Below, piece after piece: positions 1,942 to 15,602 of a stretch of DNA of 64,000 bases (position 1 is the first letter of the stretch; each line of letters opens with the position of its first letter). The stretch is from contig JAJDTB010000011.1 in the NCBI GenBank assembly GCA_022827345.1, positions 1-64,000 of the forward strand, written 5' to 3'. The notes under the pieces were generated by a model that saw only the letters and a list, made by a program, of their open reading frames with translations, searched no databases and was not told the origin of the DNA. This stretch comes from Gemmatimonadota bacterium (GTDB lineage: Bacteria; Gemmatimonadota; Gemmatimonadetes; Longimicrobiales; Gaopeijiaceae). A program made the position numbers and the translations under genes.

Positions 1942-4212
1942 TTACCGTACTGACATAGCACCGGGACTCCGCACCCAAAGCGCCGCCGCCACGTCCCTCG
2001 GACGCCGCTTGCCGCGCATTGACGGATGTCTGAGCACTCGCACCTCCGACTTACGAGCCAGATTCTCGACAACCTCCAAATGGGTCCGATTCCTGAAACC
2101 AGCTCCCTGGAACACCACAACTTCCGGCCGATAGATCCGAATCTCGTCCAACAGAAATCGCTGCTCGATCTCGGGAGATAGGTGTTTCCGATCCGCGCCG
2201 CCTGAGGCCCGATCCCGACGTATCGTCGTCCACTTGTAGAAGTTCGTCAGCCCGACGAACGAAAGCGGATTCGCCCTCCAATGCGATTCCGGGTATTGGC
2301 GCAAGACTTGTTGACACGTGAGATCACTGTCGGCGATGTCATCCCACCCGTACTCGGCCGGCAGGAGTGAGAGCGCCACGCACCAAGTGCCCGCGATGTG
2401 AGGATTGTGATCACGCGGTCTCTTCTCCTCGATATTCCGCCGTCGGGTCTCGAACGATTGGAGGTGCCCGGGATCCCCGCCGATGTCCAAGCCAATGAAG
2501 AGTATCCGTGTGCTTTCTCCATACCTGGACCCCACATACGGATGGCATGCGAATCGTCTTTCGCTGTCAGGAAAGCGAGCCGGCATCCCCGTTTTTCGAT
2601 TGATTCCCATGTCGCGGAAGAATCGGTGATGTCTCTCGTCCAAGCGGGCGACAACGTCGTCGCGGGTGGTCACCGGGGGTTGATCGTCCTTTTGTTCGCC
2701 AATTCGAGGCCGATGTGGCGGACAAATGCCAACCCGCGGCTCCATCTCCGCGAGCACACCGCCCGGAACCGTGGCCTCCGCCAACAATGGCGAGTCGTGA
2801 TGCCAGAACCTCCGCTCGGTCGTTGGCCTCAGGGAGAGAGTGCTGCCGACGAAGCGTCGGTCGTAGATCGCGTACAGTCTCCGGAACATCCGGTTGTAGT
2901 CGAGTAGCGATTCAGGTGGCGGGTAGTGGGGAGGTGGGATGCCTTGCTGGGGTCCGGTGCCCTGCTCAACCACAGTGACAGCACAGGATTCGTAACGTGA
3001 CGGGTCGTCACGGATGTCTCCGCGCTCCGAGAGGCGAGCCAGGGCGTCGCAGTAGCGCCGGAGTTCCGCCGCAAGTTCGCCGGTACACGTCCGGGCGTGG
3101 TCGCCGTTATCGCCCGGGCCACCGACCGGGTCGGGCACGCCGCCCGCCACAAGATCTTGGACCCGGCTCACGCCGAGGACATGCCAGAATCCGTACACCA
3201 GCGCCGGATAGATCATGTGGAGATTCACGCAGGCTCCGGCGATACGCTCCAGGCCGCCGGTCAGTTCGGGGACTCGACCGCGAGTGACCGCTGCGCTCTC
3301 AGTCCCTTCCAAAGACAATGCGAGCACGGGGCCGATGGTGGGAATTGTGACCGTCACGTCCGGCTTCGCGGCCTTCAGTCCGCCCGGAAGGGTCAGCCGG
3401 TCAGCATTGGCTGCATCCGGATCATGGGAGAGGAGCAATCCGTCCCGGGCTCGATCCACGGTGATCGGTGGACGCGGCCATATCCAGTCGGGGTCGAACC
3501 CTCCCTCGATGACGAGGCGGTTCGCGACGTACCGTCGGAGAGAGCTGACGAGTTGTCCGGGCTGGGTCGGTGGTATGGTTGGGAAGCGGATTTCCGGCGG
3601 CTCGCGACTGGTAAGCCCTTGATGGATCAGGTCCAGAAAGCGCTGCCGGTCTTGACTGTTTTCCGGATCAAGCGAGCACCACACCTGATCGCGGGCATAG
3701 AGCCTCACCGTTGGCCGCAAGCCCTTAGCGACCGGAACGAGGTCACGCAGCGTGTCGTACCAAGCTCTTTGTTCGTCGCGGTATGGCGGACTTCCGTCCT
3801 TTGCGTCGTGTTTTTCGCAGAGTTCCAGCCACCGCTTTGCCGGGAATCCCAGGGGGTGATGGCCCGCATACACGGAAAGCGCGAGCCTTCTTGGGCTCGT
3901 AAAGTGCTGTCTCTCATCGAATTCGACGACGAAACCGGGATCGGGAACCCAGTAGTCGCAGGCGGCCAATTCCTTGCTGCGCACAAACTCGTCGATTCCG
4001 AATCCTCGATGCCCCCGGAGCACTTGGGCTACGTCTTGCAGAGTGGAGCCGATTGGGGATCCTGCGTAGTCGGCGAGGCCGGTACCCCATCGGAATCTGT
4101 GATTGCGCACGCACGTTCCGTAGACGCGCTCCAGCAGCTGGTGGACCCGGGTCTTGCACTCGCTACAACTCTGGGAGTGGCGACGTGAGGGGATGGTACG
4201 CGTCCTGGTCAT
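1942..4212 (-). CDS. Large protein with nuclease-like N-terminus and UDG-like C-terminus
   Basis: Protein of 756 residues with no full-length family that I recognise. Residues 17-19 start a C-x-x-C pair. Around 87-100 there is D-Y-W-V-P-D-P-G-F-V-V-E-F-D-E, resembling a PD-(D/E)XK nuclease core, followed by R-Q-H-F. A second K-P-D-V ... L-A-L-S-L-E-G-T segment lies near 283-304. Residues about 569-745 resemble the uracil-DNA-glycosylase fold: motif 1-like F-I-G-L-D-I-G-G-D-P-G, then F-V-G-L-T-N-F-Y-K-W, then V-V-V-F-Q-G-A, then motif 2-like H-P-S-M-R-G. The ATG at 4212 is chosen over one 19 codons earlier because a near-consensus promoter (4229-4256) lies between them. A DNA-targeting or defence role is inference from domains; neither activity is shown. 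Confidence 0.6.
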   Translation of the reverse strand: MTRTRTIPSRRHSQSCSECKTRVHQLLERVYGTCVRNHRFRWGTGLADYAGSPIGSTLQDVAQVLRGHRGFGIDEFVRSKELAACDYWVPDPGFVVEFDERQHFTSPRRLALSVYAGHHPLGFPAKRWLELCEKHDAKDGSPPYRDEQRAWYDTLRDLVPVAKGLRPTVRLYARDQVWCSLDPENSQDRQRFLDLIHQGLTSREPPEIRFPTIPPTQPGQLVSSLRRYVANRLVIEGGFDPDWIWPRPPITVDRARDGLLLSHDPDAANADRLTLPGGLKAAKPDVTVTIPTIGPVLALSLEGTESAAVTRGRVPELTGGLERIAGACVNLHMIYPALVYGFWHVLGVSRVQDLVAGGVPDPVGGPGDNGDHARTCTGELAAELRRYCDALARLSERGDIRDDPSRYESCAVTVVEQGTGPQQGIPPPHYPPPESLLDYNRMFRRLYAIYDRRFVGSTLSLRPTTERRFWHHDSPLLAEATVPGGVLAEMEPRVGICPPHRPRIGEQKDDQPPVTTRDDVVARLDERHHRFFRDMGINRKTGMPARFPDSERRFACHPYVGSRYGESTRILFIGLDIGGDPGHLQSFETRRRNIEEKRPRDHNPHIAGTWCVALSLLPAEYGWDDIADSDLTCQQVLRQYPESHWRANPLSFVGLTNFYKWTTIRRDRASGGADRKHLSPEIEQRFLLDEIRIYRPEVVVFQGAGFRNRTHLEVVENLARKSEVRVLRHPSMRGKRRPRDVAAALWVRSPGAMSVR

Positions 4213-4228
4213 GGTGAGGGGATTGGGA

Positions 4229-4256
4229 ATGATATTGGCGTGCTCACAAATGTCAA
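4229..4256 (-). promoter_or_regulatory. Sigma70-type promoter of the nuclease/UDG-like gene
   Basis: On the minus strand TTGACA (4256-4251) is followed after 16 bases by TATCAT (4234-4229). The ATG at 4212 lies 16 bases beyond the -10 box, so the transcript would have a leader of only about 8-10 bases. It is the clearest -35/-10 pair in the window. Confidence 0.6.
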
Positions 4257-4354
4257 GCGAACCTGTCATTATGTGAACTGGAGATTACATTTTGGATCCG
4301 TGAAGCGGCATTTCACTGACGCTGCGGCCCGTGTCCCGTCCGAGAGGCCCGCAA

Positions 4355-4636
4355 GTGAACCCTCGCCTGAGGAGCGACCGAGCGCCCAACTTCATGGAGC
4401 CGTTCGCGCTTTCCTCCAACGCTCTTGCCCGGGCGCTCGGGGTCACGCCTGCGCGAATCAACGAGATCGTGCGGGGACGGCGTGGTATCACCGCGGAGAC
4501 CGCCCTGCGCCTCGCCAGGTATTTCCGTACGGACGCCCAGAGCTGGATGAACCTGCAGGATCGGTACGAACTCGCGGTGGCTGAGCGGAAGGTGGGTGAG
4601 GCGGTGGCCGCGATTCGGCCCATGGATGTTGTCTAG
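4355..4636 (+). CDS. HigA-type Xre-family antitoxin, no toxin partner visible
   Basis: Protein of 93 residues with a helix-turn-helix of the HigA/VapI antitoxin family: L-S-x-N-A-L-A-R-A-L-G-V-T-P-A-R-I-N-E-I, then R-G-R-R-G-I-T-A-E-T-A-L-R-L-A-R-Y-F, then W-M-N-L-Q. In the family it neutralises the HigB RNase and represses its own operon. The usual N-terminus (H-P-G-E-x-L-x-E-E-F) is absent and replaced by an unrelated arginine-rich stretch; only F-M-E-P of it remains. GTG at 4355 is preceded by GAGAGG 7 bases upstream. HigB normally lies just upstream, and no intact toxin frame is there. It starts about 140 bases from the divergent nuclease/UDG-like gene. Solitary antitoxin or decaying remnant. 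Confidence 0.7.
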   Translation: MNPRLRSDRAPNFMEPFALSSNALARALGVTPARINEIVRGRRGITAETALRLARYFRTDAQSWMNLQDRYELAVAERKVGEAVAAIRPMDVV

Positions 4637-6151: not shown

Positions 6152-7420
6152 TTGAGGTGCTCGACCAATGCCGATTGGCACGTCGCTGTCCTGGTGTGGA
6201 TCAGCATCGCTGGATGCGCTCAGACCGAGAACGATGGTTGGGCATACACGGAGTCCGATAGTGCAGGCGTGCGCGTTTATGACAACCATTACTCCTCTCG
6301 TCCCATCCAATGGAGATTCCTGGCCGAGCCACGGGAAGTCGTCAACATCGGCACGCCCGACGGTAGCGAGCCCTTCTTCGGACTTCGGGGCATTGTCCTG
6401 CTGGATGACAACCGGATGGCAGTGGCCGAGGAAACGCGCGTCCAGATAATGACGCTGACCGGGAGCGACGTTGTCTCGGTCGGGAGGGACGGAGAAGGGC
6501 CTGGAGAGTTTCGGGATATTGCTGGGATCGCGCGACTTCCGGGTGACAGCGTTCTCGTTCTCGACGGCGACTTGATGCGTCTGTCCGCGTTTGATTCTGC
6601 GGGAAGACTGGCCCACGTGACCCGGCTCGAGACGGACGGCGGCGAACGGCTCTGGGGTCTGTATGCAGCCGATGACCGCACGGTTGTGGTGGGAACGGCG
6701 ATGTCTGGTCGCTTGCTCGGGGCGGACCGTAGTCCCGGACGGCGCCGCCTCCCCTACCGAGCATTTCGCTACGAGCGGACCGGCAAGCTATTGGATGTTG
6801 TTGGCCCCCTTCCCGGCACTGAAGTCGTCGTTGGTGAATCGGGCGGACTGCTGTCGATGGGAATTGCGCCGTTCGCACACCAAACCACCATCGGGGTGGC
6901 GGGGCAGCACCTGTATTTGGGAACGGCGGAGCAGTTCGAGATACTCGTGACCCGCCTTGACGCGACGCCCGTCGCGATCATGCGGCTCGGACCGCTCGAT
7001 CTGGCCCTCGATGAGCGGGAAGTCGAGGCATGGATCGACAACTACGCCGCACAACTGCGCAGTCCAGTGGCGCAGGATGCCTTCCTGCGCGCCATGGCTC
7101 AGGCCGAACCGCCAACAAAGCGACCCGCATTCGAAGCACTGGTCGTCTCGGATGCGGGCGACCTGTGGATCAAGGAGTTTGACGGAGATTCGACTCGAGA
7201 CGTTCTCTGGCACATGGTGGCGGGCGCCGACGGCAGGTATTGCGGTTCCCTCTCGCTCCCGGGCGCATTCTGGTTGATGGATGTCAGGGGTGGCAGGTTG
7301 GCCGGGATGTGGAAGGACGAGATGGAATTGGAATACGTGCGGTTGTACGAACTCGACGGCAACCTGCTTGAGGGGTGCAGGAACGAGATCGTCAGCAGGG
7401 GCCCGCCGGTTCGCAGGTGA
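6152..7420 (+). CDS. 6-bladed beta-propeller lipoprotein (2)
   Basis: Protein of 422 residues. The N-terminus has a short hydrophobic segment ending I-A-G-C, a lipobox. Blade-like repeats follow, with D-G-E-G-P-G-E-F near residue 118, matching the preceding gene. The start is uncertain: TTG at 6152 gives a signal peptide of normal length, while the frame is open far upstream inside the previous gene. It likely sits on the periplasmic or outer face as a lipoprotein. Role unknown; tandem arrangement with a paralogue suggests duplication. Confidence 0.7.
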   Translation: MRCSTNADWHVAVLVWISIAGCAQTENDGWAYTESDSAGVRVYDNHYSSRPIQWRFLAEPREVVNIGTPDGSEPFFGLRGIVLLDDNRMAVAEETRVQIMTLTGSDVVSVGRDGEGPGEFRDIAGIARLPGDSVLVLDGDLMRLSAFDSAGRLAHVTRLETDGGERLWGLYAADDRTVVVGTAMSGRLLGADRSPGRRRLPYRAFRYERTGKLLDVVGPLPGTEVVVGESGGLLSMGIAPFAHQTTIGVAGQHLYLGTAEQFEILVTRLDATPVAIMRLGPLDLALDEREVEAWIDNYAAQLRSPVAQDAFLRAMAQAEPPTKRPAFEALVVSDAGDLWIKEFDGDSTRDVLWHMVAGADGRYCGSLSLPGAFWLMDVRGGRLAGMWKDEMELEYVRLYELDGNLLEGCRNEIVSRGPPVRR

Positions 7421-7441
7421 TCGCACGGCGCCCGAGAGTGA

Positions 7442-7903
7442 TCAGGTAGCGCCAAACAGACTCAGCCACATGACGGCCAATTGGAGCGCAGCGAACGTCA
7501 TTGATAGCAGTATCCGCCGCGCACGCCCGATGGTCGGTTCGGCACCCCAAGAAGCAGCGATGCCCACGATCGACAACCCGCCGATGAGGATCGTCAACAC
7601 AATTTCCACCGGTGTGTAGTTGCCCGTGAAGAAAGTCTGCACTCCAGCGAGGTACAGCCAGATCAGTCCCATGAAAAAGGCCCAGCAACCGAACAGGCCA
7701 AGGGCCGCAGGCGCCGTCCAGCGCTGTCGGCGGACGGCGAACGCCAGCACGACGACAATGGGCGTGATCTGAAAGACGTGTCGAAGGAAGGTTCCGCTCT
7801 CGATCCCGACGATCAGGAGACATGCGGCAACGCCGGTCAGGCAAGCGACTCTGACGCGTCCGCCGGAACGGCCGCTGCGGGTGGGTTTCGTCAGGTAGTC
7901 CAA
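7442..7903 (-). CDS. Small integral membrane protein, four helices
   Basis: Protein of 153 residues with about four hydrophobic segments (roughly 20-38, 45-60, 68-92, 100-118) and a fifth near 130-150. No family recognised. The start is taken as TTG at 7903 with GGAGCG about 7 bases upstream; the first 18 residues are basic. It converges on propeller gene 2, and its 5' end abuts the decayed HicB copy. Function unknown. Confidence 0.5.
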   Translation of the reverse strand: MDYLTKPTRSGRSGGRVRVACLTGVAACLLIVGIESGTFLRHVFQITPIVVVLAFAVRRQRWTAPAALGLFGCWAFFMGLIWLYLAGVQTFFTGNYTPVEIVLTILIGGLSIVGIAASWGAEPTIGRARRILLSMTFAALQLAVMWLSLFGAT

Positions 7904-13778: not shown

Positions 13779-13871
13779 GAGCGGCGTCCGTGGGTTGCTC
13801 GCCCTTAGCGAACTCGCCATCGTTTGCGGCAATCGGCACGCCGCCTCTCGCTCTCGTCTTCACCCGGCCCC

Positions 13872-15602
13872 ATGCTGACCAACCTCACGATCCGCAACTT
13901 CAAGCGCTTCGGCTCGGTCGACGTCGAGCTGGGGAGCCCCGTGGTCTTCATCGGGCCCAACAACTCGGGCAAGACCTCGGCGATGCAAGCGCTCGCATTG
14001 TGGGACATCGGCCTGCGACGCTGGAATGAGAAGCGATCCGGACAGCAGGCGCCCGAGAAGCGGCCCGGCGTGGCGGTCAACCGCCGGGACCTTGTCTCGA
14101 TTCCGGTTCCGCACGCCAATCTCCTGTGGCGCGGACTCAAGGTTCGCAACGTGCACCGCGTCGATGGCAAGCAGACGACCAGCAACATCCGGATCGACAT
14201 CACGGTCAGCGGAGTCGGTGAGGACAGAGAATGGGTCTGCGGGCTCGAGTTCGACTACGCCAACGAAGAGTCCTTCTACTGCCGACCGCTGAGACTCTCG
14301 GAGGACCGGAACCCTCAACGGATGGTCGTGCCGGACGCCGCCGGGAAGGTTCCGATCGCGTTTCTCCCCCCGATGTCGGGCCTTGCCGCCACGGAAACAC
14401 GACTCGACCATGGCGCCGTCAACGTCCGGGTCGGAGAGGGCCGCACGGCCGAAGTGTTGCGCAATCTCTGCCACCGCGTCCACGGGGAAGGGACCCGCTG
14501 GGCCGACCTGGTAGGGCGCATCCGCAGTCTGTTCGGGGCCGAACTGCGACCGCCGCGCTACATCCCGGAACGTGGCGAGATCGCGATGAGCTACGTGGAA
14601 CACGACATCGAACTCGACCTTTCCTCTGCAGGACGGGGCCTCCAGCAGACGCTGCTCCTGCTGGCCTACATGTACGCAAACCCTGGTGCGGTGCTGCTGC
14701 TGGACGAGCCTGACGCGCATCTCGAAATCCTTCGCCAGCGGCAGACCTACCAGATGCTGACCGACACGGCCGAGGGGACGGGCAGCCAGATCATCGCCGC
14801 CAGTCACTCTGAAGTACTTCTCAACGAGGCCGCGGGCCGTGATCTGGTGATTGCGTTCGTGGGTGATCCCCACCGGATGGACAATCGTGGCAGCCAGGTC
14901 CAGAAAGCCCTCAGGGAATTCGGGTTCGAGCACTACTACCAGGCAGAGCAGACCGGCTGGGTCCTTTACCTCGAAGGGTCGACCGACCTGTCGATCCTGC
15001 GGGCCCTGGCCGCGCGTCTTGATCACAGGCCCGCCCTCGGCGCTCTGGAGCGTCCGTTTGTTCACTATGTCCGCAACCAGCCGTCAGCGGCGGCAAACCA
15101 CTTCCACGCCTTGCGGGAGGCGCTGCCCGGGCTCCGTGGGATTGCCGTCTTCGACAACCTGGGGAAGCAGTTGGTGGACACACTGCCCCTGGAACAGCGG
15201 ATGTGGAAGCGGAATGAGATTGAGAACTACGTGGCTACCAAGCGCACGCTGGAGCGATATGCAGCCGCTTCGGCTCAGGAAGCCACGCCGGGGCCGCTTT
15301 TCGCAGCTACCGAGCAGACAAGGCGGATCAGCGCCATGCGAGAGTCGATCGAAGCCATCGAGGCGGCACTGGATAAGCTTGGGAAAGGGTCTCCCTGGGA
15401 TCCGGGCATCAAGGCCAGCGATGATTTCCTCAACCCGCTCTTCGCGGAGTACTTCGCAAGGCTGGGCCTCCCCAACGTGATGCCAAAGAAGAGCTACTAT
15501 GTGCTTGCCCGCCATGTACCGAATGAAGAGATCGACTCGGAGGTGATCGGTACGCTGGACGCCATAGGGCGGATTGCCGAGAGCGCGCAAGCGCGGGCGT
15601 GA
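13872..15602 (+). CDS. OLD-like ATPase with TOPRIM domain
   Basis: Protein of 576 residues. Residues 28-36 are Walker A (G-P-N-N-S-G-K-T-S), about 273-284 Walker B with D-loop (V-L-L-L-D-E-P-D-A-H-L-E), about 310 the switch histidine (A-A-S-H-S-E). Residues about 360-460 look like TOPRIM: Y-L-E-G-S-T-D, V-F-D-N, W-K-R-N-E-I-E-N-Y. This is the layout of overcoming-lysogenisation-defect (OLD) nucleases, which act in phage defence either alone or as GajA with a UvrD-like GajB. No UvrD-like gene is adjacent. ATG at 13872 matches the usual N-terminus (L-T-I-R-N-F-K) although no good ribosome site is seen. Nuclease activity is inferred from the family. Confidence 0.8.
   Translation: MLTNLTIRNFKRFGSVDVELGSPVVFIGPNNSGKTSAMQALALWDIGLRRWNEKRSGQQAPEKRPGVAVNRRDLVSIPVPHANLLWRGLKVRNVHRVDGKQTTSNIRIDITVSGVGEDREWVCGLEFDYANEESFYCRPLRLSEDRNPQRMVVPDAAGKVPIAFLPPMSGLAATETRLDHGAVNVRVGEGRTAEVLRNLCHRVHGEGTRWADLVGRIRSLFGAELRPPRYIPERGEIAMSYVEHDIELDLSSAGRGLQQTLLLLAYMYANPGAVLLLDEPDAHLEILRQRQTYQMLTDTAEGTGSQIIAASHSEVLLNEAAGRDLVIAFVGDPHRMDNRGSQVQKALREFGFEHYYQAEQTGWVLYLEGSTDLSILRALAARLDHRPALGALERPFVHYVRNQPSAAANHFHALREALPGLRGIAVFDNLGKQLVDTLPLEQRMWKRNEIENYVATKRTLERYAAASAQEATPGPLFAATEQTRRISAMRESIEAIEAALDKLGKGSPWDPGIKASDDFLNPLFAEYFARLGLPNVMPKKSYYVLARHVPNEEIDSEVIGTLDAIGRIAESAQARA

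Follow-up and report, generated by a model that had tools for sequence, protein, structure and literature searches.

An unusual open reading frame that joins nuclease-like, restriction-enzyme-like, and UDG-like blocks in a Gemmatimonadota bacterium

The window analyzed here is a 64,000-nucleotide stretch of contig JAJDTB010000011.1 (assembly GCA_022827345.1) from a Gemmatimonadota bacterium. An open reading frame (ORF) on its minus strand extends over positions 1942-4269 and encodes 775 amino acids, counted from the first ATG. A previous interpretation, made from the letters of the DNA only (the sequence-only reading), had placed this gene at 1942-4212 and described it as one unrecognized protein in which a PD-(D/E)XK-like segment is joined to a UDG-like domain. 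The frame is indeed open on the minus strand, but it is longer than was proposed; position 4212 marks the second ATG of the ORF, which encodes residue 20. The motifs on which that description was based can all be located in the translation, specifically PDPGFVVEFDE (residues 109-119), FIGLDIGGDPG (591-601), NFYKW (676-680), QGA (721-723), and HPSMRG (748-753).

The full-length protein has no family match above the cut-off in Pfam, NCBIfam, PADLOC, or PHROGs, no match in phage records, and no credible match by sequence among solved structures, whether the whole protein or profiles of its parts are used. A whole-protein search of the phylum produced matches in 19 of 395 genomes, nearly all of which are confined to about residues 1-225, 226-530, or 531-775. 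These stretches define three blocks, all on the minus strand: A (3595-4269), a Vsr-like PD-(D/E)XK nuclease related to DUF7255; B (2680-3594), a homologue of Type II restriction enzymes; and C (1942-2679), a UDG-superfamily-like domain. Each block has homologues in other genomes at strong E-values, and tblastn with the three pieces confirms that nearly all relatives encode them as separate genes.

Neighboring genes had been taken to suggest a setting in defense. A HigA antitoxin gene (4331-4636) does adjoin the ORF, and an OLD/AbiEii-like AAA ATPase gene (13824-15602) is located about 9 kb from it. However, the other neighbors are beta-propeller genes, a DinB-family gene, and a gene for a DUF4143 ATPase, and the locus is a variable region rather than a clear defense island. 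A 123-amino-acid ORF at 1538-1909, convergent with C, weakly matches DNA-binding proteins of the Sso10a type.

Block A homologues are present in many phyla. An alignment with 19 homologues identifies a set of family-shared residues (D105, E116-F-D-E-x-Q-H-F, R127, R164, R168-A, D172, D176, and R189), all of which are kept in the window. These include the acidic active-site residues D105, E116, and D118, as well as Q121 and H122. An AlphaFold2 model of the block, built with homologues, is confident over about residues 31-219. The best five structural matches of this model are, every one, PD-(D/E)XK nucleases, with Z scores of 4.5-6.4 that lie below 8; Vsr (6.4), TnsA (5.3), NGO0050 (5.2), and Hjc (4.5) are among them, whereas Foldseek with the whole model gave no significant match. 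Thus, the proposal that the N-terminal third is a restriction-type nuclease agrees with moderate evidence that A adopts the restriction-endonuclease fold of the PD-(D/E)XK superfamily.

Vsr endonuclease and small PD-(D/E)XK nucleases (DUF559, DUF7255) appear to have this fold in common with A; the structure 1vsr ranks first over 113 residues, and the acidic motif D-x10-E-x-D-x2-QH is shared with Vsr-type nucleases. Block A differs from Vsr in that it has no Pfam Vsr match, falls near DUF7255, and carries other invariant residues downstream. The best Pfam family for A is DUF7255 (PF23913), for which we found no functional description in the literature. The window scores 15.9 bits, below the cut-off of 27, and two homologues (27.6 bits in L039 and 30.2 bits in L040) exceed it. 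Block A is likely an intact DNA cutter.

Block B, the middle third, had gone unrecognized as a restriction-enzyme homologue. Six plasmids each carry a homologue of B, an unnamed gene roughly 300 codons long that begins before the preceding gene has ended. This preceding gene is annotated as N-6 DNA methylase or restriction subunit M on four of the plasmids and as hypothetical on the other two. An Eco57I-type methylase (PF22837) adjoins the homologue within the phylum, and most relatives of B have an N6-adenine methylase gene next to them. Because B adjoins or overlaps methylase genes on both plasmids and chromosomes, it represents a restriction-enzyme lineage; Type II enzymes with an Eco57I-type N6 methylase belong to the same gene family. 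The match of B to the PADLOC REase_II family is weak (E 0.0048). XhoI was considered as the identity of B and rejected, since the similarity is too weak (one homologue, E 0.063).

The motif D-x14-S-x-K-x13-E is found in 12 of 16 aligned B proteins. In the window, however, the catalytic motif of these homologues is not complete (D304 ... S319-x-K/E321 ... E341), for the codon at 3307-3309 (minus strand) specifies Glu321 where methylase-linked homologues have a conserved lysine. Glutamate replaces lysine only in the window, L024, L043, and L044, and these four also have six extra residues ahead of the last glutamate. The arrangement in Lys-type relatives, D-x16-K-x13-E, resembles in sequence the alternative PDx21-53Kx12-13E site of the CCGG-family enzymes NgoMIV, Cfr10I, and PfoI (PMC4652773), although the D-K spacing is shorter. 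The window protein differs further from them in its glutamate, its six-residue insertion, its fusion to A, and its lack of a methylase. In PfoI, cutting was abolished by mutation of the active-site lysine, and a DNA-bound structure was obtained with the K187A protein (PMC6344858).

A search for PF22837 in the window's own genome gave no match but had no positive control, and thus the methylase itself was searched alongside genomes that are positive. It was detected in seven of 10 genomes tested, the exceptions being the window's genome (G000, a 97% complete assembly), G173, and G247. The positive genomes include G058, whose B protein (in L043) is of the Glu type and retains its adjacent methylase; the glutamate is therefore not strictly tied to methylase loss. 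BamHI has glutamate at the corresponding position, and so glutamate there need not abolish cutting.

Relatives of B are found in several other settings. In L043 (1783-8969) and L046 (1151-8316), a five-gene operon consists of B, an Eco57I-type methylase, a GHKL (MORC-like) ATPase, and two unknown proteins of 377 and 250-270 amino acids. The only viral-contig match for B is in L069 (1156-3451), a 46-kb contig from IMG/VR in which a 482-amino-acid methylase-like ORF overlaps a Lys-type B gene.

Block C is found in 12 of the 395 phylum genomes, in three genera, and is often broken; it is broken or partial in G042, G152, G148, and G394. Among the genomes sampled it is found only in this phylum, and outside the window it is a stand-alone gene. 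No copy was detected in 398 and 296 genomes sampled from two other phyla or in 14 genomes carrying A, searches that had no positive control, and none was present in phage records or viral contigs. In L051 (5090-7517), a stand-alone C gene, which encodes an additional C-terminal domain, is immediately preceded by two genes for putative endonucleases of the Uma2 type.

UDG is the sole Pfam family matched by the C family (five of six members, best E 3.8e-4), which bears out the UDG-like assignment at the level of motifs. The motifs TN-x-x-K, P-x-[VI]-V ... Q, and H-P of C homologues agree with the latter half of the UDG profile (PF03167), and the window protein has T675-N676-F-Y-K679 and H748-P749-S750, in which T, N, K, H, and P are invariant in the C family. 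The TN-x-x-K segment, the P-x-V-V strand, and the H-P motif occur in the same order as in the Pfam profile and in UDG families 4/5. However, the window protein scores 17.2 bits against a cut-off of 24.3. Its motif 1 (GLDIGGDPG, or G-L-D/Q ... D-PG in the family) is unusual, with extra residues relative to the G-x-x-P-G type, and the Pfam match begins downstream of it. A profile of C matches true UDGs of the host genome weakly (probability 9%), at a score that 13 of 300 column shuffles also reach; a single-sequence model (pLDDT 39) is unusable for fold comparison. On balance, the motifs make it quite likely that C is related to the UDG superfamily.

Contig L024 of genome G173, the only other place where A and B are fused, bears on how the blocks are joined. 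Its DNA is 88% identical to the window over window positions 4321-2550. In L024, the A-B frame ends with CGG TGA, and this TGA overlaps the GTG at which C begins; the equivalent GTG in the window (2671-2673, minus strand, residue 533) is probably the original start of C. The C gene of G392 has its own AAAGGAG and GTG at nearly the same place. A run of five C (2675-2679, minus strand) in the window has one base more than that of L024, and because of this extra base the stop of B is bypassed and B and C are in one frame. Thus, the A-B fusion is common to the window and L024, whereas the A-B-C arrangement is a one-genome, one-base condition; the B-C join is seen in the window genome only. The sequence-only reading of the ORF as a single protein family with a new layout is therefore not sustained.

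Between the window and L024, dN/dS is 0.33 for A (P 1e-5) and 0.39 for B (P 5e-6). Since all three blocks have homologues and substitutions in A and B are mainly synonymous, the ORF is more than a product of chance. Pairs of B proteins that include a Glu type have dN/dS values of 0.33-0.50, compared with 0.09-0.24 for Lys-type pairs, and all depart significantly from neutrality. The A-B fusion is thus under purifying but relaxed selection.

These values bear on the main rival explanation, in which the locus is decaying and remnants of a restriction enzyme and neighboring genes read as one frame by chance, with no present function. This explanation is serious because each of the parts shows losses somewhere in the group. 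L024 has no equivalent of window positions 1976-2549, which make up most of C, and C is disrupted in the four genomes named above. Block B lacks its lysine and, in the window genome, its methylase; moreover, dN/dS of Glu-type B proteins is raised, and an N-terminal module associated with B is only a fragment in L044. However, 775 codons remain open, every family-invariant residue of A is kept, and purifying selection on A and B is significant. We therefore regard decay without function as somewhat unlikely.

The locus in L044 occupies the same chromosomal site as the window ORF, for window positions 4391-4629 and 6197-7740 match there at 93-95%. In L044, B is preceded by part of an N-terminal module of 90 residues; the complete module precedes B in L043 and A in L025. 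That the same module precedes A or B in different genomes suggests module swapping, and A may have replaced the module by recombination. The module has the pattern GG-x-S/E-x-N/V-x-x-LRxxGF and is present in L043 (8706-8969), L025 (7722-7985), L044 (7806-7874), and L032-L036.

The gene contexts of C raise another explanation. In L054 (G239) and L061 (G394), C is within about 6 kb of genes for a C5-methylase and a GHKL ATPase, and loci with HEF_HK, Response_reg_2, and C5-methylase genes often carry vsr (PMC8011034). By analogy with Vsr, C could be a repair glycosylase serving C5-methylase restriction loci, where it would take T or U out of mispairs left by deaminated 5-methylcytosine, and would be an orphan behind A-B in the window. 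However, this context is shared by just two of the roughly eight distinct C loci, and the L061 copy is a fragment; L051 and L053 carry Uma2-type genes instead, and no such methylase lies near the window locus among the genes examined. This role for C is accordingly improbable. The order in L061 (2037-8587) is C5-methylase, HEF_HK/GHKL ATPase, and Response_reg_2 genes, followed by the C fragment on the opposite strand. The proximity of GHKL ATPase and methylase genes to B relatives in L043 and L046, and to C relatives in L054 and L061, recalls the MORC/paraMORC restriction loci (PMC2292703, PMC8011034), from which the window locus differs in having neither gene.

A role in defense had also been proposed for the ORF, as a protein that recognizes modified or damaged bases and cuts DNA. 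For the parts, an origin in defense is plausible, given that B derives from restriction-modification loci and two C copies are near C5-methylase and GHKL-ATPase genes, but the B lysine is lost and the methylase is absent. As an anti-phage enzyme, C would excise the base, A would cut, and B would aim the two. The single frame of A, B, and C is consistent with this idea, and a modification-dependent enzyme would not require a methylase. Brig1, a single-domain UDG-superfamily glycosylase of shown activity, can defend against phages with modified bases (PMC11078745). Both Brig1 and C are UDG-superfamily-like and proposed to act on unusual bases, which is a likeness of description. However, the three-part frame occurs in one genome and hangs on one base, C is absent from the phage records and viral contigs, and the window neighborhood has no consistent set of defense genes. 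We therefore give the anti-phage role very little weight; nothing in the analysis specifically favors a base-modification-dependent defense enzyme, which seems a remote prospect. There is not yet evidence for a new defense system.

We tentatively prefer to view the ORF as a mosaic of three DNA-processing modules at a variable chromosomal site, which would constitute a solitary, repurposed restriction- or repair-type protein under relaxed selection. The occurrence of A, B, and C as separate genes elsewhere, and the replaced N-terminal module at the same site in L044, argue for this mosaic, although the relaxed dN/dS fits decay as well. Block B may still bind its DNA site but have lost cutting, which would allow the host to survive without a methylase; survival of a restriction lineage beyond its methylase fits the loss of the cutting residue. 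Block A would then supply a nuclease site on the same chain and cut, and C, translated either from its own GTG or as part of a recent fusion, would excise an unusual or damaged base. Most likely, C is newly attached or being lost, rather than part of an established fused glycosylase-nuclease. A more elaborate version, in which the silenced B aims A and C at an unusual base and one methylase-free restriction enzyme chain performs both excision and strand cutting, is highly improbable.

The ORF is thus a patchwork of mostly familiar DNA-handling parts and not clearly a new kind of system; its arrangement of known kinds is real and unusual, and it includes one little-known family, C. If A-B works, it would exemplify a restriction enzyme that outlives its methylase by losing the cutting lysine, turning into a DNA-binding module, and gaining another nuclease. 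Block C would represent a branch close to the UDG superfamily, one that is narrowly distributed and has gone unstudied.

Outside this phylum, block-A nucleases have a context of their own. In L025 (7722-10031), the nuclease is fused to a CN_hydrolase domain (E 2.6e-11); in L037 (7932-9369) and L038 (145-1551), as well as in L032, L033, L034, L036, L039, and L040, it adjoins proteins that appear nitrilase-like by eye. A block-A nuclease and a nitrilase-like protein may therefore form a pair, perhaps an undescribed one.
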